Of a stretch of 38,653 bases of DNA, positions 2,765 to 34,003 are shown one piece after another. The notes below the pieces were generated by a model. The model was not told the DNA's origin. It did no database searches and was given only the letters and a program-made list of their open reading frames with translations. The translations under genes and the position numbers were made by a program. Each line of letters starts with the position of its first letter. Position 1 is the first letter of the stretch. The stretch comes from an uncultured Eubacteriales bacterium (GTDB taxonomy: Bacteria; Bacillota; Clostridia; Christensenellales; Aristaeellaceae): positions 1 to 38,653 of the forward strand of contig CACWZI010000038.1 in assembly GCA_902765305.1 (NCBI GenBank), given 5' to 3'.

Positions 2765-2947
2765 AGCGTCTATCCCGTTATGAACCAGGGGATTACAGCG
2801 TTGCTGCTTCATCTACGGATTATTTTAGCGACGGCGTCTAAGCAGCCAAGGTATTCTCGCTAAACCAAGAGCGCCTATGGTGGCGCCGCCGCTACATGAT
2901 TTCTCACCACCATACCAGAATCAGCGATCAGCCCATTCCAATCAGCA
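2765..2947. other. Gene-free spacer with a half repeat
   Basis: No gene is seen. TATGGTGG (2876-2883) pairs with CCACCATA (2907-2914) around a loop containing GCCGCCGCTACATG, a 14-mer shared with the palindromic repeat at 15328-15378. It could serve as a weak end structure for the convergent genes but has no U tract. Confidence 0.35.
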
Positions 2948-20183: not shown

Positions 20184-21587
20184 TTATCCCTGGTAGATGA
20201 AATTGTACAGCTCGAGGGCATTGGCCTGGAAGTCGCAGTCATAGAGCATGGACTGTTCGTTGCGCACCTCTTCCTTGTAGGAGCCGCTGATGGGCAGGCG
20301 GATGCTCTTGACGCTGTTAAGGCCATTGCCGCAGACCTGCATCGCGATGGTAAACAGATCCTCAAAGGGCAGGTTGGTCTTGACCTGGTCGATCATGTCC
20401 TTGGCCAGTGCGGCCAGCTGTATCGCGTCCAGATTCTTGACCTTCTGCAGCAGCTTCTCCAGCACGATGCGCTGGCGCTCCGTGCGCATGGCGTCGCCGC
20501 CGGTCAGCTTTCGGATGCGGGCATAGGCCAGGGTCTGCCTGCCGTTCAGGTGCGTGTTTTCGCCGTAGGTCTCCAGATATACGTTTTCCTGGTCGGACTC
20601 GTCGATGCCCTCCCTGTAGGCAAACTTGGCCTGTTGGACGATCATCTTGTTGATCTTGTCCTTTTCCGCCTCGGTGATGTCGATCTCGACGCCGCCCACG
20701 CGCTGGGCGATCTTCTGGAAGCCGAAGAAGTTCACCAGCACGTAGTACTGGATATTCATTCCGAACTTCTCGTTGATCGTGCGCATCGCCAGGTTCGGGC
20801 CGCCGAAATAGTTGGCGGCGTTGATGCGGTAGGTGCCGTTGTACTGGCCGATGTCGGTATACTCTATGGCCAGGTCGCGCATGATGGACGACAGCTTGAC
20901 CTCGCCGGTGTTGCGGTTGATGGAGCAGATCAGCATGGCGTCGGTGCGGGAGCTCTCTCTCAGCGTCCGCTCGTCCGTGCCCAGCAGCAACACGTTCAAC
21001 CAATCTGCGGGCAGGTTGGTGTTCATCCGCAGATCCGACACCTGGGCCATGTTCTCTGCGGAAAGGCTGCCCACGTTGTAATCGGCATCGGCCAGCTTGT
21101 CAGCGAGGTTGTCGTACTGCGGGGCATCCTCATCCCCGTCGCTTGCAGAGAGCAGTGCGTCGGAGGCCGGGGCGGAGGTGTCGCCCGTCACCGTATTGGA
21201 GGCCGGTACAGCGACGTTGTCCGCCACCGGGTCGTTGCCACGCCGGCCAAAGGGCTTGACGATGACCAGCACCAGCACGATCACGAGCACTGCAGCCAGG
21301 GCCGCGAACAGGGGCATCCGGTTGGGCTTGCGCTTCCTGCTGCTCCTGCGGGGCGGATAGCCCTGGCGCTGGGGCAGGCGCTGGCTGCCGGACGGGCGCT
21401 GGCCCGAGGGCCTGCGCTGGGGCGGACGCTGGCCGCCGGAGGCGCGCTGGCCGGAATAGGCCGGACGGGACGCCCCGCTTCGGCCCGTGGCCCGCTGTCC
21501 GGAATAGCTGCCGCTTCGTCCCGAGCGGCTGATGCCCGGCTCCACGCGGCTGCGGTTATCATAATCTGAAGGATATCTCGTCGCCAA
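20184..21587 (-). CDS. LCP (LytR-CpsA-Psr) family wall glycopolymer ligase
   Basis: LCP enzymes transfer lipid-linked glycopolymers to peptidoglycan outside the cell. The 467-residue protein has a long basic cytoplasmic tail of about 90 residues with SGQR-like repeats, a transmembrane helix at about 91-110 (MPLFAALAAVLVIVLVLVIV), an Asp/Ser/Ala linker and the LCP domain from about 195 (WLNVLLLGTDER; SSRTDAMLICSINRNTGEVKL; SIMRDL; YRINAANYFGG). The Arg residues of QTLAYARIRKLTGGDAMRTERQR are family hallmarks. The start is TTG at 21587, with AAGGAAGG about nine bases upstream. It heads the polysaccharide locus, fitting attachment of that polymer to the wall. Confidence 0.9.
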   Translation of the reverse strand: MATRYPSDYDNRSRVEPGISRSGRSGSYSGQRATGRSGASRPAYSGQRASGGQRPPQRRPSGQRPSGSQRLPQRQGYPPRRSSRKRKPNRMPLFAALAAVLVIVLVLVIVKPFGRRGNDPVADNVAVPASNTVTGDTSAPASDALLSASDGDEDAPQYDNLADKLADADYNVGSLSAENMAQVSDLRMNTNLPADWLNVLLLGTDERTLRESSRTDAMLICSINRNTGEVKLSSIMRDLAIEYTDIGQYNGTYRINAANYFGGPNLAMRTINEKFGMNIQYYVLVNFFGFQKIAQRVGGVEIDITEAEKDKINKMIVQQAKFAYREGIDESDQENVYLETYGENTHLNGRQTLAYARIRKLTGGDAMRTERQRIVLEKLLQKVKNLDAIQLAALAKDMIDQVKTNLPFEDLFTIAMQVCGNGLNSVKSIRLPISGSYKEEVRNEQSMLYDCDFQANALELYNFIYQG

Positions 21588-21631
21588 TTTGATTTGCCTT
21601 CCTTCCTGTGGAAATACATACAGATAGAGTC

Positions 21632-21660
21632 ATTATACTGATATTGCTTTCTGTCTGCAA
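21632..21660 (-). promoter_or_regulatory. LCP gene promoter
   Basis: On the minus strand TTGCAG (21660-21655), 17 bases, TATAAT (21637-21632). The DNA from 21661 to 21788 shows no gene. Confidence 0.6.
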
Positions 21661-21788
21661 CCGCAAAGTTGTTCAAAAGTCGCATCAAATATGACATTAT
21701 TCCGACAATGCCGTGCTGTTTCGGTTTATCCGCATCCATGCGTCGCAAGTCCTGCCCGCATTGTCGAAAATATTGCGCCGCAACTCGG

Positions 21789-21817
21789 TTGACAACGCCC
21801 GTCGAATGATGTACAAT
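21789..21817 (+). promoter_or_regulatory. greA-lysS promoter
   Basis: TTGACA (21789-21794), 17 bases, TACAAT (21812-21817). Confidence 0.65.
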
Positions 21818-21826
21818 TATGAAGGT

Positions 21827-21876
21827 CCGAATAAGCAGGCACTGCGTAGGTTCGCGCAGTGTCGATTATTATTCGG
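21827..21876 (+). other. Structured 5' leader of greA
   Basis: CCGAATAA (21827-21834) pairs with TTATTCGG (21869-21876), and inside it CACTGCG (21840-21846) pairs with CGCAGTG (21855-21861). The structure starts right at the predicted transcript start. It could protect the 5' end or take part in control of greA, but there is no following U tract. Confidence 0.45.
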
Positions 21877-21922
21877 CTAAATTCATGTGACGGAAAAGGA
21901 CCATCACCCAGGAGGTTTCACC

Positions 21923-22432
21923 ATGGCAGACACCCGCATACTCACATTTACAGATAAGAAAAAGCTGGAGGAACAGCTGGCCCAGTTGAACGAGGAAAAG
22001 AAGCGCGTCGCCGAGGAGATCCAGGTCGCCCGCGGCTTTGGCGATCTCAGCGAGAACGCCGAGTACGACGCCGCCAAGGCCAAGGAAGCCGAGGTCTACG
22101 GCAACATTGCTCGCATTGAAGCCGAGCTGCGCACCGCCACCTTCGTGGACGACAGCTCCGCCGACTCCAACACCGCCGCGCTGGGCACCGTCGTGCGCGT
22201 GCTGGACATGGAGTACGACGAGGAGGACGAATACACCCTCGTGGGCTTCACCGAGGCCGACCCGGCAAAGCTGTTCATCTCCAACGAGTCTCCCATCGGC
22301 ATGGCCTTGATCGGCCGCAGCGAGCCCGGCAAGAGCGACTACATGCCTCCAGCCAAGGTCGGCGACATCGTGGAGGCCAACACCCCCGGCGGCATTGTCA
22401 AGCTGAAGGTGCTCTCCATACGCAAGCGCTGA
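21923..22432 (+). CDS. greA: Transcription elongation factor GreA
   Basis: Rescues backtracked RNA polymerase by stimulating transcript cleavage. The 169-residue protein has the N-terminal coiled coil (about 10-80), with the tip motif GDLSENAEYDAAK from residue 40 whose acidic pair D41/E44 coordinates the active-site metal, and a C-terminal FKBP-like domain (VRVLDME...SPIGMALIGRSEPGKSDYMPPAKVGDIVEANTPGG). The start at 21923 follows GGAGG by seven bases. lysS follows after 43 bases, the greA-lysS pairing common in Firmicutes. Confidence 0.97.
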   Translation: MADTRILTFTDKKKLEEQLAQLNEEKKRVAEEIQVARGFGDLSENAEYDAAKAKEAEVYGNIARIEAELRTATFVDDSSADSNTAALGTVVRVLDMEYDEEDEYTLVGFTEADPAKLFISNESPIGMALIGRSEPGKSDYMPPAKVGDIVEANTPGGIVKLKVLSIRKR

Positions 22433-22475: not shown

Positions 22476-23960
22476 ATGGTCCAGACCTACCAGGCGCCGT
22501 CGAACTTCACCGAGCAGGACACCATTCGCTTGGGCAAGCTGAACGCGCTGATCGAACAGGGCAGGAACCCCTACGAGATCACCACCTATGACCGCACCCA
22601 CACCTCCGGCCTGATCCGGGACCAGTACGACGCACTGGAGGGCAAGACCGTTCGCATCGCCGGCCGCATACTGGGCAAGCACATCATGGGCAAGGCCAGC
22701 TTCGCCCGCATCCAGGACCCGGACGGCACGATGCAGATCTACGTCAAGCGCGACGACGTCGGCGAGGACGCCTACAAGGACTTCAAGGCCCTGGATATCG
22801 GCGACATCATCGGCGTGGAGGGTACGGTGTTCAAGACCAAGACCGGCGAGATCTCCGTGCACACCGGGAAGCTTACGCTGCTGACCAAGAGCCTTCACCC
22901 GCTGCCGGAGAAGTTCCACGGCCTGACCGATACCGACACCCGCTATCGCCAGCGCTACGTCGACCTGATCGTGAACCCCGAGGTGAAGGACACCTTCATC
23001 AAGCGAAGCCTGATCCTGCGGGAGCTGCGGGCGTTCCTGGACGGCAGGGGCTACCTCGAGGTGGACACCCCCATCCTCACGCCCTTTGAGATCGGCGCGG
23101 CAGCCAAGCCCTTCTACACCCACCACAACACCCTGGACATGGACATGGTACTGCGCATCGAGACGGAGCTTTACCTGAAGCGGCTGATCGTTGGCGGCCT
23201 GGACCGGGTCTACGAGGTGGGCCGGATATTCCGCAACGAGGGCATGGACACCAAGCACAATCCCGAGTTCACCACCATCGAGCTGTACGAGGCCTACACC
23301 GACTTCCACGGCATGATGGACCTGGTGGAGGACATGATGAAGACCGTGACCCAAAAGGTCTGCGGCAGCCTGGTGATCCCCTACCAGGGCAACGACATCG
23401 ACATCGGCCACTGGGAGCGCCTGACCATGGTGGAGGCCGTGAAAAAGTACAGCGGCGTGGACTTTGCCGACTGGAAGACGGACGCGGACGCCATCGCCTG
23501 CGCCAAGGCCCATCATGTCGAGTTGCCGGAGATCCCCACCAAGGGCGCGATCCTGGCGGAATTCTTCGACGCCTACGTCGAAGAGAAGCTGATTCAGCCC
23601 ACCTTCATCTACGACTACCCGGTGGAGATCAGCCCCCTGGCCAAGCGCAAGCCCGACGACCCGATGTTCACCGAGCGCTTCGAGTACTTCATCAACGCCA
23701 CCGAGTTCGGCAACGCCTTCTCCGAGCTGAACGACCCGCTGGACCAGCGCGCCCGCTTCGAAAAGCAGGTAGCCGAGCGCAAGAGCCTCGACCCCAACAG
23801 CGGCGCCCAGGTGGATTACGACTATGTCAACGCCCTGGAATACGGCATGCCCCCCACCGGCGGCCTCGGCTTCGGCGTGGACCGGCTGGTGATGCTGCTG
23901 ACGAACAGCGATTCCATCCGGGACGTGCTGCTGTTCCCGACGATGAAGCCTTTGGACTGA
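22476..23960 (+). CDS. lysS: Lysyl-tRNA synthetase, class II
   Basis: Charges tRNA-Lys with lysine. The 494-residue protein has the N-terminal anticodon-binding OB domain (VRIAGRILGKHIMGKASFARIQD) and the class II catalytic core: motif 2 FRNEGMDTKHNPEFTTIELYEAY and motif 3 GLGFGVDRLVMLLT. The ending LLFPTMKPLD is normal for the family. Start ATG at 22476 with GAGAGGAG upstream. The last codons (23940-23956) are repeated exactly at 27329-27345, where a mobile island appears to have integrated. Removing the island would change only the last residue (Asp to Glu) and leave the stop in place. No T-box leader is seen. Confidence 0.97.
   Translation: MVQTYQAPSNFTEQDTIRLGKLNALIEQGRNPYEITTYDRTHTSGLIRDQYDALEGKTVRIAGRILGKHIMGKASFARIQDPDGTMQIYVKRDDVGEDAYKDFKALDIGDIIGVEGTVFKTKTGEISVHTGKLTLLTKSLHPLPEKFHGLTDTDTRYRQRYVDLIVNPEVKDTFIKRSLILRELRAFLDGRGYLEVDTPILTPFEIGAAAKPFYTHHNTLDMDMVLRIETELYLKRLIVGGLDRVYEVGRIFRNEGMDTKHNPEFTTIELYEAYTDFHGMMDLVEDMMKTVTQKVCGSLVIPYQGNDIDIGHWERLTMVEAVKKYSGVDFADWKTDADAIACAKAHHVELPEIPTKGAILAEFFDAYVEEKLIQPTFIYDYPVEISPLAKRKPDDPMFTERFEYFINATEFGNAFSELNDPLDQRARFEKQVAERKSLDPNSGAQVDYDYVNALEYGMPPTGGLGFGVDRLVMLLTNSDSIRDVLLFPTMKPLD
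23940..23956. repeat. Left attachment site (attL candidate)
   Basis: ACGATGAAGCCTTTGGA inside the 3' end of lysS is identical to 27329-27345. With the following N-TGA, 20 of 21 positions agree. The two copies bound the AT-rich island. Confidence 0.75.
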
Positions 23961-24015
23961 GAAAACGCCGTGTTTTCAAGGGTTTTCGAGGTTTCAGAAG
24001 ACGCAGAAGCAGCAA

Positions 24016-24036
24016 TTTACCACAGTTTTACCACAG
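24016..24036 (+). repeat. Tandem TTTACCACAG boxes
   Basis: TTTACCACAG occurs at 24016-24025 and 24027-24036, an 11-base period that puts both on one face of the helix. They lie 60-80 bases inside the left attachment site, the position of integrase arm-type sites in many tyrosine-recombinase elements. Confidence 0.45.
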
Positions 24037-24056
24037 CTCACTAAGATTTTCTCAGA

Positions 24057-24093
24057 TAAAAGACACTGTTGCGCAAGCGGCGGTGTTCTTTTT
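24057..24093 (+). terminator. Terminator downstream of lysS
   Basis: AAAAGACACTG pairs with CGGTGTTCTTTTT with one bulge, around a GC-rich loop containing TTGCGCAA, and ends in a T run. It would end the greA-lysS transcript just inside the island. Confidence 0.5.
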
Positions 24094-24161
24094 ATGCCGT
24101 ACCTTGAGTAAAGTCCCGCCTATGGACGAGGTTTTCCTCAGGGCATGGAGAACATATACCC

Positions 24162-24216
24162 GCAAAAAAAAGATAGGGAGTCATCTACACAATGTAGGTG
24201 GTTCCCTATTTCTTTT
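24162..24216. terminator. Bidirectional terminator
   Basis: A long stem (ATAGGGA, then CATCTACA, pairing with TGTAGGTG and TCCCTAT; 24173-24209) has eight A on its left (a U run for minus-strand transcripts) and TTTCTTTT on its right. It is the likely end of the leftward toxin/antitoxin transcript, whose last stop is at 24366. The DNA between 24217 and 24365 shows no clear gene. Confidence 0.65.
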
Positions 24217-24365
24217 CCGCCCAGCCGGTCATGGCTCGGCCTTTCAGTCACGCGCTTTTCATTCCTGATTTGTGGTTCTGCGCTAACCTATCGGATCATT
24301 ATCTGGCCCCCATGTCAATGGGGACTACCGGCAAGTCGTCAAACCTGCCACAACTGTGCATATGC

Positions 24366-25016
24366 TTACAAGGCACCCACAACAGAATCCATGTCCGCAC
24401 TAATAGCCCTCGGTAGAAAATACCCTTTGATACAATCTGTATTTCGGACACAGATTTGAATATGGGACTTTTCTCTTATACCAGCACCTGGATATGCGTC
24501 CTTACCTTCCTGGAAATATCCATAAACGGTATCAAAAACCTGTCCATCTGCTTTTGCTGATTCAATCAGGTTATTGATGACCAAGCAATCGAGCCTTCTA
24601 AAAAGCTTAAACCCACCGGCATCATCAGCAGAATTGACTACCTTCTCGTTAATTTTCTCTCCTCTAAACTCGAAGCTAAGTCTTAGCTCAGTGTAACTTC
24701 TCCTAAGCGCTCTAATTGCACTCCTCTCAGATAGATTCAAACAGTTTCCAAGTTCTATAACCGCACCAATGACATAAGGTCTCTTAATCTTTCCTCTCTT
24801 CTCTGTCTCAATTGCCCACTCATATGCACGCACAGGATCATTTAACCAGAAATAAATACCTTCTCCTAACCAATCATAATCATTTGTGCTTGCCTTTAAA
24901 TGTTCTGTCTGGGAATTGAGTATTTTCTTACCAACAGTTTCATCACAACCGTGAAATCCGAGAACTATTCCACCAGTATGTTGGTAGAGTGCCTGATCAA
25001 TTTTTGATAATTCCAT
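24366..25016 (-). CDS. Candidate ADP-ribosyltransferase-fold toxin
   Basis: The 216-residue protein is AT-rich in codon use, unlike the genes outside the island. Its N-terminal part has GFHGCDETV (H22) and, about 25 residues on, YDWLGEGIYFWLNDPVRAYEWA (residues 47-68). This spacing of an HG turn, a G-x-Y-F strand and an A-x-x-WA helix is like DUF3990 and other PARP-like ADP-ribosyltransferases, where H and Y bind NAD. A late segment SHIQICVRN may be the end of the fold; a clear catalytic Glu is not obvious. It overlaps a small upstream gene by 20 bases, the layout of a toxin/antitoxin pair. The function is inferred. Confidence 0.6.
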   Translation of the reverse strand: MELSKIDQALYQHTGGIVLGFHGCDETVGKKILNSQTEHLKASTNDYDWLGEGIYFWLNDPVRAYEWAIETEKRGKIKRPYVIGAVIELGNCLNLSERSAIRALRRSYTELRLSFEFRGEKINEKVVNSADDAGGFKLFRRLDCLVINNLIESAKADGQVFDTVYGYFQEGKDAYPGAGIREKSHIQICVRNTDCIKGYFLPRAISADMDSVVGAL

Positions 25017-25221
25017 GCGTATCTACACCATCCCCTGTCTTTACGCTGTGATTTGCACTGGTCTGATCATTGCGGACAACAACACACGCATATCTCGTAC
25101 TAACCTTATTTGTTCTTGTAAGAAAACCGCTCCTGCGCAGAATTTCATTTGCCTTACTTGCGTCAATCTCCTCTATAGGAGTGTCAGCATACTTTTCCAA
25201 AAAACGCTGTGCACTCGTCAT
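24997..25221 (-). CDS. Small putative antitoxin partner
   Basis: A 74-residue charged protein starting MTSAQRFLEKYADTPIEEIDASKANEIL, with a helical N-terminal half and a polar tail ending DTHGIIKN. It is not a family I recognise. The start at 25221 has AGGAG ten bases upstream; an ATG six codons earlier (25239) would leave only about a dozen leader bases and no ribosome binding site. A near-consensus promoter is at 25257-25286, and the stop overlaps the downstream start by 20 bases. Size, order and overlap suggest an antitoxin. Confidence 0.5.
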   Translation of the reverse strand: MTSAQRFLEKYADTPIEEIDASKANEILRRSGFLTRTNKVSTRYACVVVRNDQTSANHSVKTGDGVDTHGIIKN

Positions 25222-25256
25222 CTCATTCACGCTCCTCATTGTATTCTGACACCCCC

Positions 25257-25286
25257 ATTATAATACAACTATTATTCATTAGTCAA
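25257..25286 (-). promoter_or_regulatory. Promoter of the candidate toxin/antitoxin pair
   Basis: On the minus strand TTGACT (25286-25281), 18 bases, TATAAT (25262-25257). Confidence 0.6.
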
Positions 25287-25318
25287 CTGGAATATAACCG
25301 TTTTAGGCAGATATATCC

Positions 25319-25534
25319 TTACTTTTTTTCCTGTGTTTCATTCTCCATCTCCGACAGCCCACCAGCACTCGTCAGCAAGCTCAGAATCCCTGCCAGCACA
25401 AAAGAAGACAGCACCCGCTGCCAGTTCACGTCGCCCATTGTTGCACTTGTGCCAATGGTCGCAGCAGCAGTCTGCGCCACAGTTCTTATAGCGCGGATAC
25501 CCGCAGCCTTTATCCACTTCTTTAAATCGAACAT
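25319..25534 (-). CDS. Phage holin, r1t-type
   Basis: The 71-residue protein starts MFDLKKWIKAAGIRAIRTVAQTAAATIG and continues NWQRVLSSFVLAGILSLLTSAGGL. This is the pattern of r1t-family holins: a basic amphipathic start, two hydrophobic segments and a short charged tail. Holins form membrane lesions that release an endolysin. Start at 25534 with AGGAAG nine bases upstream. No endolysin or tail gene is next to it, so it is a phage relic or has been taken for another use. It reads the same way as the toxin/antitoxin pair downstream. Confidence 0.75.
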   Translation of the reverse strand: MFDLKKWIKAAGIRAIRTVAQTAAATIGTSATMGDVNWQRVLSSFVLAGILSLLTSAGGLSEMENETQEKK

Positions 25535-25672
25535 AATTTCATCTTCCTTTTATTATATCGACAAGTCCATAAACTTCCGATGGATTGCTATTGTCCAGGA
25601 TCAGATCTATGATATGCAACTTGTTGACCGGGATTACCTTCGCATAGCGTCACAAGTGATGGGAGTAAAGCT

Positions 25673-25855
25673 ATGATCTGGCTTTCAAACTCAGCCCAAA
25701 GATACGCGTTAGATGTGTGCGATGAAATATCAAACTACCGTGCGATTGTGTATGTTCGCAGAATCACGCTCGCTGATGGTTCTTTTTTTATCTGTAAATT
25801 ATTGTTGACTATTACACGTACATATGTTAAAATGTGGGTGCTGAATGATTGCTGA
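25673..25855 (+). CDS. Small hypothetical protein (uncertain)
   Basis: A 60-residue frame starts MIWLSNSAQRYALDVCDEI, with GGGAG seven bases upstream. Its ATG overlaps the stop of another open frame (ending VMGVKL at 25676) as ATGA, as in coupled genes. That upstream frame has no clear start of its own and overlaps the holin on the other strand. These may be remnants of one phage gene. No family is recognised. Confidence 0.25.
   Translation: MIWLSNSAQRYALDVCDEISNYRAIVYVRRITLADGSFFICKLLLTITRTYVKMWVLNDC
25805..25833 (+). promoter_or_regulatory. Promoter of the 107-residue island gene
   Basis: TTGACT (25805-25810), 17 bases, TAAAAT (25828-25833). Confidence 0.55.
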
Positions 25856-25895
25856 AAGGTGGTATGATGATTATAGAAAGAGGAGGAATTTGTCG

Positions 25896-26219
25896 ATGGC
25901 TATTTTTGGGCTTGATTCGCTGCTTACGCGTGATAATATGGTGAAAGCAGGAAAGTGGTTGGTGAAAACCGTGCCGGGAGCTATCTTAGGTGCGTATGTA
26001 ACTAAAAAGGGAAGCGAAGTCTTACACCATTATATTGACAGTCATAAAGAGACGGTCAAGTACATGGCAGATAAGGCGGCTGAAACTGGAAGTTATGTTC
26101 ATGCAACGCGGGATGGCGAGTATACCTTTGACGCACGCAAGAAAAGCGAAGCACCTGAGAACGTAGATGGTGAGTTTGCTGACGCTGACGCACCTGAAGC
26201 AATACCTGAAGCAGTCTAA
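25896..26219 (+). CDS. Hypothetical island protein
   Basis: A 107-residue product starting MAIFGLDSLLTRDNMVKAGKWLVKTVPGAILGAYVTKKGSEVL. The first 45 residues alternate hydrophobic and basic and may lie on a membrane; the tail is acidic and Ala/Pro-rich (ENVDGEFADADAPEAIPEA). The start at 25896 has GAGGAGG about ten bases upstream; the 17 codons before it overlap that site. Promoter at 25805-25833. No family recognised. AT-rich codon use matches the island. Confidence 0.55.
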   Translation: MAIFGLDSLLTRDNMVKAGKWLVKTVPGAILGAYVTKKGSEVLHHYIDSHKETVKYMADKAAETGSYVHATRDGEYTFDARKKSEAPENVDGEFADADAPEAIPEAV

Positions 26220-26369
26220 GCCTTTCCAACATCTATCACCTCCTTTCTTATTGTTGTCTCACCCCGTGGCGTGGTGGTTGTCTTTGAGCACGAAAGCGTC
26301 ACACGGTTTACACTGGTATCCCCTATCAGTAGTCATTCAGCACCATTATATAGTGGAGGGGTTGTCACC

Positions 26370-26921
26370 ATGAAGCGGTTGCTAGTTGTCATGTTGGTTC
26401 TGATGTTTGGCATCATGTCGGTGGCTTCGGCTGAGGATGCCGGAATTGATTTATCTGGCAAGACGGTTGATGACCTGATTGCAATAAGTCAAGCTGTTGA
26501 TGAAGCACTGTTTGAACAGGGTGGCAAGGTGGTATTACCCGTTGGTAAGTTGATCGCTGGTAAGGATATTGCTGTAGGTAGTTACGTGATTGAGGTTCAC
26601 GGCTATAACGCTGAAGAAGTCAAGAGTTTCCAACACTTCAACATTGTAATCTGGAAGTCTGAACAAGCACAGTCTGAATATCAGACCGCTTACCATGAAT
26701 ACAGTGCAAAGTGGGACCAGGCAAAACGGGATAAGGAAGCTGGAAAAGAATATGAATACCCCGTTGAAGTTGACCTTACACAGTATATGTCATTCAGGGG
26801 ACAGTTTGACGCCGGTGATTCTGCAAGAATCACACTGGAAGATGGACAAGTGCTTATCTGCAACAGCGACATTGAGGGTACAATGACAATTGAACAAGCA
26901 AAAGGTTTGTTTATGGAGTAA
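26370..26921 (+). CDS. Secreted hypothetical island protein
   Basis: A 183-residue product with a clear signal peptide (MKRLLVVMLVLMFGIMSVASA, cleavage near residue 21). The mature part is acidic. It contains LPVGKLIAGKDIAVGSYVIEVHG, a G-x-DI-x-x-G-x-Y pattern found in small beta-rich secreted proteins of gut Firmicutes, and a late TLEDGQVLICNSDIEGTMTIE segment. The start at 26370 has GGAGGGG nine bases upstream. A terminator follows at 26942-26974. Function unknown. Confidence 0.7.
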   Translation: MKRLLVVMLVLMFGIMSVASAEDAGIDLSGKTVDDLIAISQAVDEALFEQGGKVVLPVGKLIAGKDIAVGSYVIEVHGYNAEEVKSFQHFNIVIWKSEQAQSEYQTAYHEYSAKWDQAKRDKEAGKEYEYPVEVDLTQYMSFRGQFDAGDSARITLEDGQVLICNSDIEGTMTIEQAKGLFME

Positions 26922-26941
26922 CGACATTCAAGATTCACAAA

Positions 26942-26974
26942 CACCTTGCACTGTTGCAGGGTGCTTCTTCTTTG
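26942..26974 (+). terminator. Terminator after the secreted island protein
   Basis: CACCTTGCA pairs with TGCAGGGTG (one G-U pair, four-base loop), followed by CTTCTTCTTTG. Confidence 0.7.
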
Positions 26975-27328
26975 TCAAAATATATACATTATGGTTTTAT
27001 TATATATTCCCATTTTTGAAATTGCGATAAAGCCCCACCACAGGATTATTCGTAATGGGACGATTTGATTGTTTTAAATCATCGGTTATAATATCATCAC
27101 AAAAAAAGCTGATTAACGGGCTTGACCTTCCATCTAAAGCAGGTGATGCACAGGGGAGCGGGCTAAGCATCACGTTAAGACCACATCCAGTAACCATTAA
27201 TGCAAGTGTCATTTCACCGATATATAGTGTGACACTTGCATTTAATTTTGAGTCAGATATAAAAAGGATGATGTAATAATTGATTATTCAAAAAAATGTC
27301 CTTTTATGCCTCAAAATATAAATTCCTC
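26975..27328. other. Right end of the island, no convincing gene
   Basis: AT-rich DNA. Two overlapping open frames of about 70 codons on opposite strands (27000-27212 minus, 27055-27276 plus) lack good ribosome binding sites. A 13-bp inverted repeat lies at 27199-27242. Confidence 0.4.
27199..27242. repeat. 13-bp perfect inverted repeat near the right attachment site
   Basis: AATGCAAGTGTCA (27199-27211) and TGACACTTGCATT (27230-27242) with an 18-base spacer that adds a CAC/GTG pair. There is no U run on either side, so a protein-binding site is as likely as a terminator. Confidence 0.55.
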
Positions 27329-27345
27329 ACGATGAAGCCTTTGGA
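27329..27345. repeat. Right attachment site (attR candidate)
   Basis: Exact copy of the 17 bases at 23940-23956. It is followed by ATGA, so a lysS restored by excision would end ...MKPLE-stop. Confidence 0.75.
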
Positions 27346-27411
27346 ATGACACATCGTAAACAAAACCCGCAGTAAAAGCATTCCCCTGCAGATTTTGTTA
27401 TGTCTATCTTA

Positions 27412-27440
27412 TTGTATTTCTTCCGTTTCTATGTTACAAT
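27412..27440 (+). promoter_or_regulatory. Promoter of the flavinylated reductase
   Basis: TTGTAT (27412-27417), 17 bases, TACAAT (27435-27440); outside the island. Confidence 0.5.
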
Positions 27441-27514
27441 GGCATTGCGTCACAGGTATGCCCGCGCTTTGTCGGCCTGCCCTGCGCCATCTTCATCATA
27501 AGGAGGAAACCCCC

Positions 27515-29422
27515 ATGAAGAAACGCATCCTTTCCCTGCTCGTAGCCGTGGCCATGCTGCTGGCCCTCGCGCCGGCGGCGCTGGCCGAGGAGGTCACCGG
27601 CACCGGCACCGCCAAGGGCTTTGGCGGCGACGTCACAGTGACCATCACGCTGAAGGACGGCGTGATCACCAAGGTCGAAGCCGTCGGCAACGACGAGACG
27701 GACGGCATCGGCAAGAACGTCATCGCCGAGTGGCCCCAGGCCTTTATCGACTATGACGGCATCGTGGACACCTACACCGGCGCGACCTTCGCCTCCATCA
27801 CCCGCGCCGCGTTCATCGAGGCCGCCCTCGCCGCGCTGCAGGACGCGGGCGTGAACCCCGAGGACTTCATGCGCGAGTACGTCGAGACGGCGGCCGAGGA
27901 CATGGTCATCGATACCGACGTGCTGATCATCGGCGCGGGCGGCGCGGGCATGACCGCCGCCATCACCGCCGCGGACGCCGGCATGAAGGTCGTGGTGCTG
28001 GAGAGCCAGCCCGCCGTGGGCGGCAACTCCGTCAAGTCCACCGGCGGCATGAACGCGGCCAAGACCAGCTTCCAGGACGCCAACGAATTCGGCGAGGAGG
28101 CCGGCGTCGAAAAGACCCTGGCCGCCGCGAAGGATAACTGGGCGGACAACGAGACCATCACCGCGCTGGCCGCCAAGGTCCAGGAGCAGTGGGACGCCTA
28201 CAAGGCCGATCCCCAGGGCTACTTTGACTCCACCGACCTGTTCGCGCTGGACACCATGATCGGCGGCAAGGGCATCAACGACCCCGAGCTGGTCAACACC
28301 CTGGTCAGCAACACCGCCGACGCCATCGACTGGCTGGCCAGCCAGGACATCAAGCTGACCGACGTGGCCTCCTTCGGCGGCGCGTCCGTCAAGCGCATCC
28401 ATCGTCCCCTGAACGAGGAAGGCAAGGTCGTATCCGTGGGCGCGTACACCGTGCCGCTGCTGGAGGCGGCCTGCCAGAAGCGCGAAAACATCACCCTGAT
28501 GACCGACACCACCGCCATTGCGCTGGTTCCCGACGAGAACGGTGCCTGCATCGGCGCGCTGGCCATGGGCAAGACCGGCAACAGCATCACCGTCGCCGCC
28601 GACGCCGTGGTGCTGACCACCGGCGGCTTCGGCGCGAACCTGGACATGGTCGAGGCCTACAAGCCGGAGCTCAAGGGCTTCATGACCACCAATGCCGCCG
28701 GCATCCAGGGCCTGGGCATCCTGATGGCCGCAGAGCTGGGCGCCGCCACCGTGGACATGGAGCAGATCCAGATCCATCCCACCGTGCAGGCCGACACCGC
28801 CTCCCTGATCACCGAGGGCCTGCGCGGCGACGGCGCGATCCTGGTGAACAAGAACGGCGAGCGCTTCATCGACGAGGTGGGCACCCGCGACGTGGTCTCC
28901 GCCGCCGAGATCGCCCAGCCCGATTCCTTCAGCTGGCTGGTCGTCGACCAGAAGATGGTGGACGCCTCCTCCGTCATCCAGGGCTACATCAACCGCGGCC
29001 TGATGCTCTCCGGCGACACCTACGAGGCCCTCGCCGAGGCGCTGGGCATTCCCGCCGATACCTTCGCCGCCACGATGAACACCTGGAACGGCTACGTGGC
29101 CGAGAAGAACGACCCCGACTTTGGCCGCACCTCCTTCGCCAACCCGCTGGATACGGCGCCCTTCTACGCCGTGAAGGTGACCGCGGGCATCCATCACACG
29201 ATGGGTGGCCTGAAGATCGATCCCGAGACCCACGTGATCGACGAGTCCGGCAAGATCATCCCCGGCCTGTTCGCCGCGGGCGAGGTCACCGGCGGCGTCC
29301 ACGGCGGCAACCGCCTGGGCGGCAACGCCGTGGCTGACTTCGTGGTATTCGGCCGCATCGCCGGCGCGCAGGCTGCCGCCTACGCCGCCGAGGCGGCCAC
29401 CGAGGTGGCCCCCGCCGCGTAA
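27515..29422 (+). CDS. Secreted FMN-binding/FAD flavoprotein (fumarate/urocanate reductase-like)
   Basis: The 635-residue protein has a Sec signal peptide (cleavage near ALA-24). An FMN-binding domain (about 28-110) follows, with DTYTGATFAS at 85-94, the D-x-x-TGA-[ST] site where ApbE attaches FMN covalently to Thr. A flavocytochrome-c-type FAD domain starts near 133 with VLIIGAGGAGMTAA. Late motifs GIHHTMGGLKID, FAAGEVTGGVHGGNRLGGNA are typical of the FrdA/UrdA-like family. It should act outside the membrane as a terminal reductase for fumarate, urocanate or a similar acid, fed by membrane-derived electrons. There are no heme motifs. The start at 27515 has AGGAGG eight bases upstream. The substrate is unknown. 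Confidence 0.9.
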   Translation: MKKRILSLLVAVAMLLALAPAALAEEVTGTGTAKGFGGDVTVTITLKDGVITKVEAVGNDETDGIGKNVIAEWPQAFIDYDGIVDTYTGATFASITRAAFIEAALAALQDAGVNPEDFMREYVETAAEDMVIDTDVLIIGAGGAGMTAAITAADAGMKVVVLESQPAVGGNSVKSTGGMNAAKTSFQDANEFGEEAGVEKTLAAAKDNWADNETITALAAKVQEQWDAYKADPQGYFDSTDLFALDTMIGGKGINDPELVNTLVSNTADAIDWLASQDIKLTDVASFGGASVKRIHRPLNEEGKVVSVGAYTVPLLEAACQKRENITLMTDTTAIALVPDENGACIGALAMGKTGNSITVAADAVVLTTGGFGANLDMVEAYKPELKGFMTTNAAGIQGLGILMAAELGAATVDMEQIQIHPTVQADTASLITEGLRGDGAILVNKNGERFIDEVGTRDVVSAAEIAQPDSFSWLVVDQKMVDASSVIQGYINRGLMLSGDTYEALAEALGIPADTFAATMNTWNGYVAEKNDPDFGRTSFANPLDTAPFYAVKVTAGIHHTMGGLKIDPETHVIDESGKIIPGLFAAGEVTGGVHGGNRLGGNAVADFVVFGRIAGAQAAAYAAEAATEVAPAA

Positions 29423-29449
29423 TGCACAGACACAGGTAGCATAAAGAAT

Positions 29450-29480
29450 GGGGAGCGCTCATGCGCTCCCCTATATTTAT
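29450..29480 (+). terminator. Terminator after the reductase gene
   Basis: GGGGAGCGC-TCAT-GCGCTCCCC (29450-29471), a perfect 9-bp stem, followed by TATATTTAT. Confidence 0.85.
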
Positions 29481-29507
29481 TCATATCATAAATGTTCAAT
29501 CGTATAC

Positions 29508-29523
29508 AAATACTGATTTGTCG
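29508..29523 (+). repeat. Third copy of the ATACTGATTTGTCG motif
   Basis: AAATACTGATTTGTCG is identical over 16 bases to 16255-16270, where it opens the quasi-palindromic element. Here the second arm is missing and a different repeat begins 20 bases on. Confidence 0.5.
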
Positions 29524-29525
29524 CG

Positions 29526-29826
29526 CTATACGCGGCACCCAACAGCCTTCCCCAGGCAGCGAAGCTGCCGGTTCAGGGTGTGGCTACGCACACCCTGAAA
29601 CGCTCCCTTCGGTCGCTGGGGAAGGCTTTGTGCATCGTCGCCCTCGGTGGGCTGGTCGTTCTCGCCCTCGGCGGATTCCTCCGCCTCTTCCTCGGCGAGC
29701 GCCTCAACATCTTCTCCTTCTGAGGGCGCTTGCTCGCCCTCAGAAGGGACTGTCCTCTGCGAACACGGGCAACGCCAACAACAGCGCGAGTAACAGCGCT
29801 ATCAATCGCTTGACGGTATATTTCAT
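29526..29826 (-). pseudogene. Frameshifted and truncated gene for a small secreted acidic protein
   Basis: An ATG at 29826 starts MKYTVKRLIALLLALLLALPVFAEDS, a clear signal peptide with an AEDS cleavage region, then meets TGA at 29742-29740. Moving one base forward opens a frame reading PSEGEQAPSEGEDVEALAEE and on to DQPTEGDDAQSLPQ, an acidic linker like those of other surface proteins here. That frame then runs into the hairpin repeat at 29544-29627 and stops at 29528-29526. A one-base deletion and a repeat insertion at the 3' end explain this best; the stop lies in a CCTTCTGAGGGCG hairpin. It follows holA by 63 bases on the same strand. Confidence 0.55.
29544..29627. repeat. Multi-hairpin dispersed repeat (CCTTCCCCAG type)
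   Basis: An outer 12-bp stem AGCCTTCCCCAG (29544-29555) / CTGGGGAAGGCT (29616-29627) encloses GGCAGC-GAA-GCTGCC (29555-29569), an 11-bp hairpin TTCAGGGTGTG / CACACCCTGAA (29572-29599) and a weaker CGCTCC...CGGTCG stem, giving a cloverleaf-like shape. Elements with CCTTCCCCAG ends are familiar from gut Clostridia genomes. It lies within the 3' part of the broken gene on the minus strand. Confidence 0.6.
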
Positions 29827-29889
29827 GTTCCCAACCCCTATAAGTATCATCATTACCCAACTGAAGGCTTGCGATCAATCGTCGAATCT

Positions 29890-30915
29890 TCACCGTTGGC
29901 CCCGGGCAAGGCCGATTTTGAAGATCAGGGCGTCCAGGGCGTCCCTGTCCCGCAGGCGGCCGCTTTTCACGGCGTAATCCGAGGCCACGCAGCCCTCGTA
30001 CAGGCCGGTCAGCCAGCCGGCGGAAAGCCTTGCGCACTGGCGCGCGGTCTGTTTGGCGGCGTAGGGGTGCAGCTTCAGCTGCTCCTGCACCGTCTGGACC
30101 GGCTTGCCCTCGTCCAGGGCGCACTTCATGTGGGCCAGCTGGCGGATCTGCCGGGTGAGCATGGCCAGCAGCCCCATGGCGTTCTGGCCGCCCTGCAGCA
30201 GGCTGTTGACGGTCTGCTGACCCTTCTGTATATCCCCGGCCAGCAGGCTGTTCAGCAGCTCGAAGACATTGTATTCCAGCGACGGCGGGACGATGGCGGT
30301 CACGTCCGCCTCGGTGATTTCGCTGCGCTCGTCTCCCAAATAGGCTGCCAGCTTGTCCAGCTCGCCACTCAGGCGCGTCAGCTCGCGCCCGGCCATGTAG
30401 GTCAGCGTCGACAGCGCCCTGCCGTCGATCTTCTTTCCCAGCGGCCTAAGTCGCCCGGCGCTCCAGCGGGCCAGCTCCGAATCGCTGAGCAGGTCGAAAC
30501 TGACCGACTCGGCCTTCTTCTTCAGAAGCCCGGTCATCTTCTTGCGGCCGTCCGGCTCCGCGCGCATGTAGAAGACCAGTGCGCAGCTGTCCGGCGGGTT
30601 TTCCAGCCACTTCTGCATCCAGGCGACCTCGCCGTCCTCGTTCTTCGATTTGGCCTGCATCAGCGGCGCCCAATCCCGCACGGTGACGATGCGCCGGTCG
30701 CACATCATCGGCATGGTCTCGGCCGCGTCGGTGATCTGCTGGGCGGTCACACCCTCCAGGGTGGTGTCGTTCAGCGTCTCAAGCCCCGGCGGCAGCAGCT
30801 TCGCCTTCAGGGCCTCCAATGCCTCCCGCTTGACATATTCCTCGGGCCCGGTGAACAGATAGACCGGGGCGATCTTCCCCGCGTCCAGGGCCTTGTAGAA
30901 TTCATTCCACTTCAT
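29890..30915 (-). CDS. holA: DNA polymerase III subunit delta
   Basis: Clamp-loader wrench that opens the beta sliding clamp. The 341-residue protein has the family opening EFYKALDAGKIAPVYLFTGPEEYVKREALEAL, where the Walker-like loop has lost the lysine as normal for delta. VRDWAPLM and FELLNSLLAGD (about 225-235) mark the AAA+ lid and the start of the C-terminal collar domain. The start at 30915 has AGGAGG six bases upstream and overlaps the comEC stop by 14 bases. comEC-holA adjacency is common in Firmicutes. Confidence 0.93.
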   Translation of the reverse strand: MKWNEFYKALDAGKIAPVYLFTGPEEYVKREALEALKAKLLPPGLETLNDTTLEGVTAQQITDAAETMPMMCDRRIVTVRDWAPLMQAKSKNEDGEVAWMQKWLENPPDSCALVFYMRAEPDGRKKMTGLLKKKAESVSFDLLSDSELARWSAGRLRPLGKKIDGRALSTLTYMAGRELTRLSGELDKLAAYLGDERSEITEADVTAIVPPSLEYNVFELLNSLLAGDIQKGQQTVNSLLQGGQNAMGLLAMLTRQIRQLAHMKCALDEGKPVQTVQEQLKLHPYAAKQTARQCARLSAGWLTGLYEGCVASDYAVKSGRLRDRDALDALIFKIGLARGQR

Positions 30916-33283
30916 TCACAGCCTCCTGAAAGGTTTGAATGTGCCACGCCCCGCCCCAATGACGCATCGTGATCGCGCCGGACTGGCGGGTCTGGTAGAT
31001 TTCCGCGCCGCTGGCGGACAGGCGCTCCAGCGTCTCCTCGCCGGGATGGCCGTAGTTGTTTTCGCCCACGGAGATCACGGCGATGTCCGGCGTGACGCCG
31101 TCGAGAAAGCGCGCGCTGGTGCCCTTGTTCGAGCCGTGATGGGCCACCTTCAGCACGTCGGCATCCGGGATGCGCTCTGGCTCCCCCTCCTGGCTCAGGT
31201 CACCGGTGAACAGCGCCTTCTGCCCTTCGCAGGTGACCAGCGCGAGCATGGACATGTCGTTGACCTCCGCGGGCAGCGCCCCGCCGTCCGGGCTGTAGAC
31301 CTCCAGACTGGCAACGCTTGACAGCCCGATCCTGTCGCCGGTATGCAGCTCACGGATCGGTATGCCCATAGACCGCGCCTTTTCGATGCCTTCGACGATC
31401 GAAGGGGCGACTTCCTCCACGTCGAACCAGCCTGCGGGGACGTAGATGGCGTCAGGGCGGAAGCTGTCGAGAATGTCCAAAAGGCCGCCCGCATGGTCCT
31501 CATGGGGATGGGAGAGTACGATGCCGTTCAACTTCAGGCAGTTGGCGGAAAGGTAGTCCGCGGCGGGGGTATACGTATCCCCCGCGTCGATCAGCCAGGT
31601 GCAGCCATGGTTCTGTACCACGGCGCAGTCGGCTTGCCCTGCGTCCAGGAACACGAGTGTGAAGGGCCACGCCTTCATAAAAACCAGCAGCGTGGACAGC
31701 GCGGCGACGCCCACCAGCCCCAGCGGCATCAGCCTGCGCACGTTCAGGCGGATGCGACTGAGGTCAGACGCGGCCAGCATGACCGACCAGTGAGCGACGA
31801 TCAGTATGAATGGGTATCGCCCGATGCGCGCATAGCCGCCGTCAATGCCACCGCCCGCCCGGGTGATGGCCGTCAGCGCCGCAAGCAGCGCATCCGGCAC
31901 GCGGGCGAGCATTGCGGCCAGCGGCATGAAAATGACAGAGACCAGCAGCGCCAACAGTCCGAGGACGTAGCCTGCCATGCACAGGGGCACGCAGATCAGG
32001 TTGAAGGGCACCGAGAGCAGCGGCTGCCCGCCGAAGGATGCGACCACCAGGGGCAGTGTCGCCAGCTGGGCGGCCACCGACGCGCAGATCAGGTCGCCCA
32101 CGTAAGCCACGACCTGCAAAAGCGCATGCCTTGGGCCGTGAACGCCGGGAAGCCTGCGATTCAGGCCTTCCAGTCCCACCAGCCGTCGAAGCGGCGGCAT
32201 CAGCAGTATGATTCCGGCAGAGGCGGCGTAGGACAGCGCGAAGCCCGTATCCTCCAGACTCAGGGGCTTCGCCAGCAGCCACGCCAGCATCACCCCGCAC
32301 AGGCGGGTGATGCCGTCACTGGGAAGCCCGGCGATGGGGGCACAACAAAAGATCGCGAAGGTGCAGAGAGCCCGAACAAAAGGGGCGGTGAAGCCGATCA
32401 GCGCGCCATAGGGGATCAGCAGGGCAACGGCGACCAGGACGGCATATTTCCTGGGCATGATCAGGCCCAACAGCAGGGAAAGCACCGCCGCCAGCAGCGT
32501 CACATGCAGGCCCGAAATGCTGATCAGGTGGGCCGTGCCTGAGCGCTGCAGCGCGTCGCGCTGTTCATCGCCCAGCAGAGAGCGATCGCCCAGCACCAAT
32601 GCCCGCATGATGCCGGCGCTGCGGGGAAACAAGGCGTCGATGCGCCGGGCGATGGCATGACGGATGGTGACGAGGGTCGTGTTCACGCCGACGGACGAGC
32701 CCAGTATCGTCACATCCTCGATCTTCGCGGTGGCGTAAGCATCCATGCCCTGCCGGTTCAGATAAGCCCCGAAATCGAACTCATAGGGATTGGTCACCGG
32801 GTCAGGCGCCCAGATGTGTCCCTTCAGCCGAAGCCGCTGCCCACAGGCGATGGCCTCAAGGGGTTCCGGATCCCCACGCAGGTACATTCTCAGGCATAGA
32901 TCGCTGGGCGCGTCGCCCGCCGTTTCCAGCTCGAAGCGGAAGATGCGCCGCCCTGTGTCCGGATTGGTGAAGGGCTCCGCAGTCACGAGGCCCACCATTT
33001 CCACCGAATACCGGGTCTGTATCGGCTTCAGTCCGTCCAGCGCAAGGCCCATGCGCGTCATGCCCGTCGCCAGCCCCGCCAGCAGCAGCAATACCGCGGC
33101 GACGCTCCGGCGCCTGCGCAACGCGAACCCAAGCCCAACCGATGCTGCAAGGGCCATGGCGCACGCCAGTGTGGGCACAGAAAGCCGCCGGCGCAGCATC
33201 AGCCCCAGCACGGTAGCGACGGCGAAGCACGCCAGCGGACGGGCGCAAACCTGCCGCTGTACGAAACGAAGGGCGGCGCGCAT
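30902..33283 (-). CDS. comEC: DNA internalization protein ComEC/Rec2
   Basis: Membrane channel for single-stranded DNA uptake in natural transformation. The 793-residue protein has the full family order: N-terminal hydrophobic helices with a DUF4131 domain (about 25-190), the Competence domain with many membrane helices (HLISISGLHVTLLAAVLSLLLG from about 250), and a C-terminal metallo-beta-lactamase domain with FLDAGQADCAVVQ, SHPHEDHAGGL and VAHHGSNKGTS, which may trim the non-transported strand. No truncation is seen. The start at 33283 lies six bases after the upstream stop and lacks a strong ribosome binding site, so it is probably translated by coupling. Other competence genes are outside the window. 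Confidence 0.94.
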   Translation of the reverse strand: MRAALRFVQRQVCARPLACFAVATVLGLMLRRRLSVPTLACAMALAASVGLGFALRRRRSVAAVLLLLAGLATGMTRMGLALDGLKPIQTRYSVEMVGLVTAEPFTNPDTGRRIFRFELETAGDAPSDLCLRMYLRGDPEPLEAIACGQRLRLKGHIWAPDPVTNPYEFDFGAYLNRQGMDAYATAKIEDVTILGSSVGVNTTLVTIRHAIARRIDALFPRSAGIMRALVLGDRSLLGDEQRDALQRSGTAHLISISGLHVTLLAAVLSLLLGLIMPRKYAVLVAVALLIPYGALIGFTAPFVRALCTFAIFCCAPIAGLPSDGITRLCGVMLAWLLAKPLSLEDTGFALSYAASAGIILLMPPLRRLVGLEGLNRRLPGVHGPRHALLQVVAYVGDLICASVAAQLATLPLVVASFGGQPLLSVPFNLICVPLCMAGYVLGLLALLVSVIFMPLAAMLARVPDALLAALTAITRAGGGIDGGYARIGRYPFILIVAHWSVMLAASDLSRIRLNVRRLMPLGLVGVAALSTLLVFMKAWPFTLVFLDAGQADCAVVQNHGCTWLIDAGDTYTPAADYLSANCLKLNGIVLSHPHEDHAGGLLDILDSFRPDAIYVPAGWFDVEEVAPSIVEGIEKARSMGIPIRELHTGDRIGLSSVASLEVYSPDGGALPAEVNDMSMLALVTCEGQKALFTGDLSQEGEPERIPDADVLKVAHHGSNKGTSARFLDGVTPDIAVISVGENNYGHPGEETLERLSASGAEIYQTRQSGAITMRHWGGAWHIQTFQEAVNEVE

Positions 33284-33289
33284 GGTCGA

Positions 33290-34003
33290 TCAGATATAGT
33301 AGGTCGCGCCCAGCTCGGCCAGCTCCGCCTCGGGGAAGGCGATCCTGGCCTCTGAGAGCAGCGCATCGGGGACATATTTCGGGTTGAGGTGGGTCAGCAA
33401 CAGCCGTCCGGCATGGGTGTTGGCGGCCAGCTGGCCACAAAGCCCCGCGGAATAGTGCGGCGCTGTGAAGCGATGATCCGCGTTCGACAGGCCGCAATCC
33501 GCCAGCAGCAGGTCCGCGCCTTCGCAGAACAGCTCCACCAGCGCGTCCTGGTTGGAATCGCCGGTGAACACGAAGCGCTTTCCATCGCAGGTCACGGACA
33601 CCGCGTTGGTGGGCACCGGGTGCCTGGCCGGGGTGAAGGACACCCGCATCTCGCCGACGGTGAAATCCTCGGCGGGCCACAGGTCGTAGCAGGGGCAGTC
33701 CAGCAGCGCCCGCACGGCCTCCGGCTCCTCCGGCGCGTAGACGGGCAGCGGCGTTTGGCGGGGATCGAACTGAAGGGCATACTGCATGGGCAGCATGTCC
33801 GACATGTGGTCGTAGTGCAGATGACTGAGCACCACTGCGTCCAGATCCTTCGGCGGACACTCATCCATCAGGCGATTCAACACGCCGGTACCACAGTCGA
33901 TCAATATGCGGGTATCACCGCTGTCGCTGGTCAGCAGATAACCGGAGCAGGCCCCACCCGGGGCAGGATAGGGACCGTTGTTGCCAAGTATCTTGAGAAT
34001 CAT
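33290..34003 (-). CDS. MBL-fold metal-dependent hydrolase (RNase Z-like)
   Basis: The 237-residue protein has the metallo-beta-lactamase fold: VVLSHLHYDHMSDMLPM gives the H-x-H-x-D-H zinc site, HPVPTNAV the next His, FTGDSNQD the bridging Asp, and LLTHLNPKY the last His. The overall order, with GTGVLNRL and no exosite arm, is like the short RNase Z/AtsA-type or cyclic-nucleotide phosphodiesterase relatives, so tRNA processing should not be assumed. The start at 34003 has AGAGGTG six bases upstream. comEC follows directly. Confidence 0.85.
   Translation of the reverse strand: MILKILGNNGPYPAPGGACSGYLLTSDSGDTRILIDCGTGVLNRLMDECPPKDLDAVVLSHLHYDHMSDMLPMQYALQFDPRQTPLPVYAPEEPEAVRALLDCPCYDLWPAEDFTVGEMRVSFTPARHPVPTNAVSVTCDGKRFVFTGDSNQDALVELFCEGADLLLADCGLSNADHRFTAPHYSAGLCGQLAANTHAGRLLLTHLNPKYVPDALLSEARIAFPEAELAELGATYYI

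Follow-up and report, generated by a model that had tools for sequence, protein, structure and literature searches.

An insertion at the 3′ end of lysS, probably a prophage relic, carries an ADP-ribosyltransferase gene and a small probable antitoxin gene

Directly behind the lysyl-tRNA synthetase gene (lysS) of an uncultured Eubacteriales bacterium (Christensenellales, Aristaeellaceae; GenBank assembly GCA_902765305.1), a block of AT-rich DNA lies between two copies of a short repeat, which raises the question of what kind of element entered here and what it has left behind. The DNA analysed, hereafter the window, is the whole 38,653-nt stretch of contig CACWZI010000038.1 (positions 1 to 38,653, forward strand), and the element is an island of 3.4 kb within it. 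An earlier sequence-only reading had described the island, with no mention of the ADP-ribosyltransferase and partner gene pair that it carries. The island did enter the 3′ end of lysS by site-specific insertion, the repeats being its ends, and it is probably a decayed prophage remnant that holds a toxin-antitoxin-type cargo pair. The cargo pair matters more than the integration event, as the novelty lies in the pair while the island alone is a known kind of element.

The insertion target, lysS (22476..23960, plus strand), is an open reading frame (ORF) whose product is 88–98% identical to LysS in same-genus genomes. The 17-mer ACGATGAAGCCTTTGGA stands on the plus strand at 23940..23956, the core of the left attachment site (attL), and again at 27329..27345, the core of the right one (attR), which adjoins the host flank as in the empty sites described below. 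This repeat had been taken for the last 17 coding bases of lysS; the exact copies are at both coordinates, but the repeat stops one base short of the final coding base (23957, C). Extended through that base and the stop codon the match is 20 of 21 bases, and in a 34-nt register the two ends are 82% alike. The base after attR is A, and excision would leave lysS ending in MKPLE, whole either way, as had been proposed; the site before insertion read GAATGA after the core, and it still reads so after attR and in the relative G017. With up to three mismatches ACGATGAAGCCTTTGGA has three matches in the window (0.14 expected from shuffles), and with up to two mismatches it has three sites in the 3,875,652-base draft genome, the third on another contig. 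The only exact copies in the genome are those of attL and attR, and a second copy of the island was not found in the genome.

Base composition agrees with the AT-rich block that had been described between the repeats. The seven 500-base bins from 24001 to 27500 have GC contents of 0.38–0.47, and all other bins of the window have 0.468–0.716; four of the latter (1–500, 2001–2500, 2501–3000 and 21501–22000) also fall below 0.49, so that composition alone is no proof of insertion. No tRNA genes were found in the window, and the single match in an Rfam search (E 0.88, far under its cut-off) was rejected as an RNA gene.

The decisive comparison is with relatives. LysS was searched in 60 of them, all of which matched, some only through other synthetases, and the DNA 3′ of lysS was fetched as 30 stretches from 29 relatives, namely 26 of 27 same-genus genomes, two of the same family and one of the same order. 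The lysS end was located in 28 of the 30 stretches; the script did not find it in the two stretches of G022, and G019 had no lysS match. In two of them, G008 and G017 (LysS identity 98% and 96%), the DNA found behind attR in the window lies directly 3′ of lysS, without the island, and continues with the same terminator-like stretch and the same flavoprotein-like gene. That gene (27515..29422, plus strand; named by eye, without a family search) is 85% identical over 648 amino acids (aa) in G008 and 91% over 327 aa in G017, where the contig ends, and in G008 further genes follow in the window's order, minus one window stretch between them. Because these two genomes carry the post-attR sequence directly after lysS, the island is an insertion bounded by the repeats, and the empty sites that the sequence-only reading had suggested looking for are present in two of the three closest relatives.

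Six of the 26 same-genus genomes could be classed: G008 and G017 are empty, G007 and G020 have a related integrase, G018 holds a relic and G002 has the empty site of that relic. The remaining 20 are unclassed, often with a contig end soon after lysS or with other DNA there, and most other relatives have other DNA 3′ of lysS.

The sequence-only reading had considered lysS unusual as a target, which does not hold, as lysS is a known type of target and an insertion there is by itself ordinary. Integrative and conjugative elements (ICEs) with tyrosine integrases enter the 3′ end of lysS in streptococci, one of three with a direct repeat of the last 17 bp, according to the excerpts of PMC4701971 used here, and more lysS ICEs, e.g., ICE_SsuGZ1_lysS, are described for S. 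suis in excerpts of PMC7168690. The same site is repeatedly used in relatives of our genome. Mutually related integrases lie 3′ of lysS in the fetched stretches of G007, G020 and G046, and those of G007 and G046 carry a Tn916 integrase DNA-binding domain and a phage integrase domain. The G007 contig ends soon after the integrase; a second lysS-like end lies beyond the integrase in G046, at 5.3 kb, and in G020, at 17.7 kb. The DNA past the second lysS-like end in G020 matches the sequence following lysS in G021, an arrangement that suggests elements in tandem. In G018 only 1.3 kb separate lysS from a second lysS end, and this interval contains the C-terminal fragment of an integrase (44% over 48 aa); nearly identical DNA to that beyond the G018 junction follows lysS directly in G002. 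Short lysS relics are therefore present at least twice in the genus (3.4 kb in the window and 1.3 kb in G018), and one genus shows a series of empty site, larger elements and short relics. These observations extend the use of lysS as a target to another bacterial group and to phages.

Several further features of these lysS-flanking stretches were recorded. In G046 (L064) a compact element fills the first 5.3 kb after lysS; it encodes a Tn916-type integrase besides what look by eye like a relaxase and a DNA methyltransferase, and a second arm-like repeat set comes after it, as if two elements stood in tandem. An AT-rich block (32–36% GC) is common to the first 3 kb after lysS in L059 (G020) and L050 (G027), and it encodes on the minus strand a 528-aa AAA-like ATPase and a 419-aa membrane-like protein (names by eye), perhaps another cargo pair. 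Short stretches of about 10–40 bp in length, behind the lysS stop in G003, G009, G012, G015, G022 and G024, resemble the attL side of the window and are perhaps scars of related elements. A weak integrase match 3′ of lysS in G003 (24% over 263 aa, 14.6 kb away) was dropped as unrelated.

The only phage gene matched inside the island is that of a 71-aa r1t-type holin (25319..25534, minus strand; PF16945, 1.7e-11, over cut-off; phrog_443 holin). Its gene shares 89% DNA identity with viral contig L088 over 193 nt, and in that contig it stands behind an endolysin-like gene (by eye). Genes for capsid, terminase or tail were not matched in the island, and no integrase was found among the tested island ORFs by profile searches or by tblastn with lysS-type integrases, which bears out the lack of an integrase reported earlier and makes the island a relic, not a prophage.

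Viral contigs were scanned for the lysS-end pattern, which gave seven stretches. In L111 and L108 the sequence CCCCACGATGAAGCCGTTGGACTGA, the lysS end as core of a phage attachment site (attP), stands beside an integrase 56–62% identical to that of G007 (for L108 over 253 aa only). The order in L111 is a lysozyme/endolysin-like gene, small genes, attP and integrase, and this contig also matches NrdD, reverse transcriptase and tail fibre. L113 starts five bases before the lysS-end pattern, which is followed by period-11 repeats (by eye) and then by a minus-strand endolysin-like gene with lysozyme, CHAP and amidase domains. The other four stretches have neither a related integrase nor lysS and look like chance. 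Reverse transcriptase genes in L113 (5231–6373, by eye) and L111 (476–1945, phrog_1423) possibly belong to diversity-generating retroelements.

The island has repeats of the same period. Arm-type direct repeats (TTTACCACAG and TTTTACCACAG, period 11; 24016..24038, plus strand) begin 55 nt after the lysS stop, and none of 500 mononucleotide shuffles scored as high. G007 has repeats of the same period at nearly the same distance in other letters (0 of 200 shuffles), as have, at a similar distance and more weakly, G015 (9 of 200) and G046 (19 of 200), while G021 and G011 have other period-11 repeats farther out (0 of 200 each). We infer that such arm repeats bind the integrase. Within the island TTTACCACA, with up to one mismatch, has no sites besides 24016 and 24027, and the arm on the integrase side therefore seems to have been lost. 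Of the six PF00589 genes in the genome, the four longer ones, set against the lysS integrases, reached at best 26% identity over 312 aa, which makes mobility in trans less likely. The island has most likely lost its mobility.

The larger gene of the cargo pair encodes a 216-aa ADP-ribosyltransferase (24366..25016, minus strand) of the CmdT / PD-T4-9_A / phrog_14664 group (phrog_14664, 8.5e-26; PADLOC PD-T4-9_A, 8.4e-7). When one genome per species was scanned, 351 relatives came out, and the best 80 were retained; their records are from Proteobacteria, Bacteroidota, Verrucomicrobia, Spirochaetes, Planctomycetes, Bacillota and others. Near home the enzyme is rare, being present in one of 150 family genomes, the source genome (G000) itself, and not found in the 149 others. 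In phage records it matches only Synechococcus phage S-B28 (two records, one phage). An alignment of 79 members, window included, has 15 invariant positions, among them H22, Y55, E170 and Q187; these are consistent with the H-Y-[E,D,Q] triad of CmdT, and the assignment of the triad residues is provisional. PADLOC PD-T4-9_A matches 78 of the 79 at E ≤0.01. Pfam gave the 79 no good match, the best being PARP, itself of the ADP-ribosyltransferase fold, in seven members at E 0.0025 or weaker, and NCBIfam gave one stray match only. An AlphaFold2 model from the 79 sequences has a predicted local distance difference test (pLDDT) score of 91 and replaced a first, poor model from three sequences (pLDDT 56). 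Foldseek returned eight matches at E ≤0.001 in a viral library, two of them named ART-PolyVal-like, where ART stands for ADP-ribosyltransferase. One viral relative from the fold search is labelled DUF6321, and part of the family may already bear that name; no Pfam model named DUF6321 matched among the 79 members, and DUF6321 was not found in open-access PMC literature.

The second gene of the pair precedes the enzyme and encodes an 80-aa partner, a probable antitoxin (24997..25239, minus strand), that overlaps the ADP-ribosyltransferase gene by 20 nt. Ahead of the pair lies a sigma-70-like promoter, TTGACT-18-TATAAT (25257..25286, minus strand), with 11 of 12 consensus bases in a consensus scan, which finds 10 promoter-like sites in the region against 8.1 in shuffles. 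Both reading frames are intact. A short ORF stands in this position in most relatives; its consensus is SKxxAxxFLxxAGIxxxxGxLxxxY, for which the window reads SKANEILRRSGFLTRTNKVSTRY. Partners were counted in 80 loci (78 from the best of the 351, plus two viral), with a model that had been trained on half of the loci (24 sequences) and was tested on the other half. In the held-out half a partner frame reached E <0.01 in 35 of 40 loci, and none of 535 control frames, taken from these loci ahead of other genes, did so (best 4.4 bits); the window partner scored 13.1 bits (E 0.0037) against a model built without its sequence. Training half included, 73 of the 80 loci have the partner, 71 upstream and two downstream of the enzyme, with a median gap of −1 nt in the 71 upstream cases and a median partner length of 59 aa. 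The two loci with the partner after the enzyme are L184 and L196, and the gene order can therefore flip. In L177, from a Mediterranea draft genome, the partner motif forms the tail end of a larger protein that has a Panacea (SocA) antitoxin domain (PF13274, 2.3e-20). Among 65 other partners scanned, Pfam and PADLOC gave single weak matches only, and the Panacea domain was in none; nor was any same-strand downstream ORF common to more than two of the 80 loci. Because of the homology to CmdT, the gene overlap, the conservation of the partner and the one Panacea fusion, the pair is most likely a toxin-antitoxin module of a probable toxin and a probable antitoxin. No description of the pair was found in the available parts of open-access PMC papers; other viral ADP-ribosyltransferase toxin-antitoxin pairs are treated in excerpts of PMC9503650.

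How these parts came together may be pictured as follows. A temperate phage with a lysS-like attP core would have recombined site-specifically with the 3′ end of lysS, exchanging the last lysS bases for the phage copy and leaving lysS whole. The enzyme, judging by the relatives, would be a tyrosine integrase of the Tn916 type. With attP between the lysis end and the integrase, as in L111, insertion would bring the minus-strand lysis end and late cargo next to lysS, with the integrase at the opposite end. To judge by the missing parts, the prophage later lost its middle part, its integrase and the arm on the integrase side, and the remaining 3.4 kb would comprise attL with the left arm repeats, the cargo pair, the holin, two further genes and attR. 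The ADP-ribosyltransferase would be restrained by the small protein made just before it and freed when a phage attacks or the pair is lost, and the role of the pair is probably abortive infection or addiction. This would favour retention of the pair and help to explain how it outlived the prophage.

The two further genes lie on the plus strand near attR. An ORF of 107 aa, or 124 aa from an upstream ATG (25896..26219), has no convincing family match and no viral relative. A 183-aa, probably secreted protein (26370..26921) has a signal-like N-terminus (by eye); among 149 other family genomes, 28 encode one or two weak relatives each, which match mostly its first 80 residues. A terminator-like hairpin inside the island (24062..24087, plus strand), now behind lysS, is weak, since the scan gave five such sites against 2.6 expected from shuffles. 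In the right flank, a window stretch at about 29423–33388 with a 793-aa minus-strand ORF is absent between the same-order genes of G008, perhaps as a second insertion or a deletion.

Of the explanations considered, we hold a decayed prophage remnant in lysS with a toxin-antitoxin-type cargo pair to be the probable one, because the order of attL, arm repeats, minus-strand cargo, r1t holin and attR fits L111, with the integrase and the right arm missing. A number of observations weigh against it. Among the closest relatives, G025 (LysS 97%, the second closest) has unrelated sequence after lysS and is no empty site for this island. The distal lysS copies are barely above shuffles in an ungapped 36-base score (window 24/22, G018 23/22, G046 23/21, G020 26/22), and for this reason it is the empty sites that carry weight. 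The arm-repeat test was no better than shuffles in most other relatives, and the letters of the window's arm motif differ from those of the elements with found integrases, which leaves the window's own integrase without a match. The close DNA match of the holin to L088 ends at the start codon, the tested small genes beside the endolysin-like genes of L111 and L113 had no holin match in Pfam, and lysis was assigned in these two contigs partly by eye. Neither plus-strand gene near attR has a phage relative (phage records were searched for the 183-aa protein, viral contigs for the 183-aa and 124-aa proteins), so that the phage origin rests on the left half, chiefly on the holin. As for the cargo, the model score of the window partner is modest, tblastn with it recovers none of the other partners, and the seed motif was picked after all loci had been viewed, which makes the held-out test not fully blind. 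Foldseek against the PDB gave the enzyme a single match under E 0.001 (9k3a_B), the weak matches including ADP-ribosyltransferase folds (Tpt1, PARP-1 and others) as well as unrelated folds.

Three other origins compete with the prophage remnant. The island might be the relic of an ICE or a mobilizable element and not of a phage, as the lysS element of G046 starts with a relaxase-like gene (by eye) and has the same integrase type, and as the lysS elements in the parts of PMC4701971 and PMC7168690 used here are ICEs; we consider this unlikely, since the holin has 89% DNA identity to a viral contig, the gene order resembles that of L111 and L113, and no relaxase or conjugation gene was found among the island ORFs tested. 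It is quite unlikely that the island is a minimal satellite, free of an integrase and still excised or moved by the integrase of a helper phage that recognises attL and attR. Both cores are exact, the left arm repeats are intact and a toxin-antitoxin-like cargo would suit such an element, but the motif lacks a copy in the right arm, none of the four integrase genes compared in this genome (93% complete) is close, the island occurs once in the genome and the ADP-ribosyltransferase was found in none of the 149 other family genomes, while G018 offers a comparable short relic with an integrase fragment. Nor was an integrase or relaxase of its own, as a satellite or mobilizable element might have, matched among the island ORFs. 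The earlier description as satellite-like or decayed is thus kept in its second half, as the gene order, the holin and the missing integrase-side arm fit an internally deleted prophage better than a satellite. An assembly artefact, in which unrelated AT-rich DNA was joined to lysS, might be suspected in a draft genome of 177 contigs, the more so as the G022 contigs end at this site; with an exact 17-bp repeat at both joins, a right flank as in two empty-site relatives and comparable anatomy in other genomes, we regard it as very unlikely.

As an insertion, the island resembles elements already known. Like the streptococcal lysS ICEs, which use a tyrosine integrase, it entered lysS at its 3′ end, and one of those ICEs also has a 17-bp repeat, the last 17 bp of the gene (PMC4701971, in excerpt). 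In the same excerpts those ICEs are conjugative, with vanG-family or ConjICESt3 modules, whereas the island is 3.4 kb long, has a phage holin and yielded no integrase or conjugation gene; this comparison is one of anatomy. With the phages L111, L108 and probably L113 it shares a lysS 3′ end core, beside the integrase in L111 and L108 and opposite endolysin-like genes in L111 and L113, and with L113 also the period-11 repeats (by eye). L111 and L108 differ in having an integrase, and all three differ in having other late genes and no ADP-ribosyltransferase noticed in the contig parts examined.

The nearest known system for the pair is PD-T4-9, or CmdTAC, which comprises a toxin that ADP-ribosylates mRNA (CmdT), an antitoxin (CmdA) and a SecB-like chaperone (CmdC); these accounts come from excerpts of PMC9519451 and PMC11618068, and the latter reports that CmdT alone is insoluble and not toxic. 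The likeness lies in a CmdT-like ADP-ribosyltransferase, in invariant residues that fit H-Y-[E,D,Q] and in an operon with a small partner. In CmdTAC, as far as those excerpts describe it, the antitoxin gene is downstream of CmdT, whereas here the small gene stands before the enzyme in 71 of 73 loci; moreover, there is no widely shared third gene, and the partner is marked by a motif of its own and belongs to no PADLOC family. No match to a SecB-like CmdC third gene was found among the eight island ORFs, and no SecB-specific search was made of the 80 loci. The enzyme family itself is spread over many phyla, and no Pfam or NCBIfam model matches it convincingly. From these sequence comparisons it is plausible that the pair is a chaperone-free relative of CmdTAC, which, if true, would give direct access to the question of how control over an RNA-modifying toxin arose and how a phage-sensing chaperone joined it. 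The fusion of the L177 partner to a Panacea domain recalls the PanAT / Panacea systems (PMC8832971), which differ in that no ADP-ribosyltransferase was seen among the tested Panacea toxins in the excerpts of that paper. We give roughly even chances to the broader proposal that the pair stands for a widespread, little-described two-gene toxin-antitoxin and phage-defence family, chaperone-free and linked to Panacea at least once, in which a CmdT-like enzyme would be under the direct control of a small protein and of which CmdTAC would possibly be a later elaboration.

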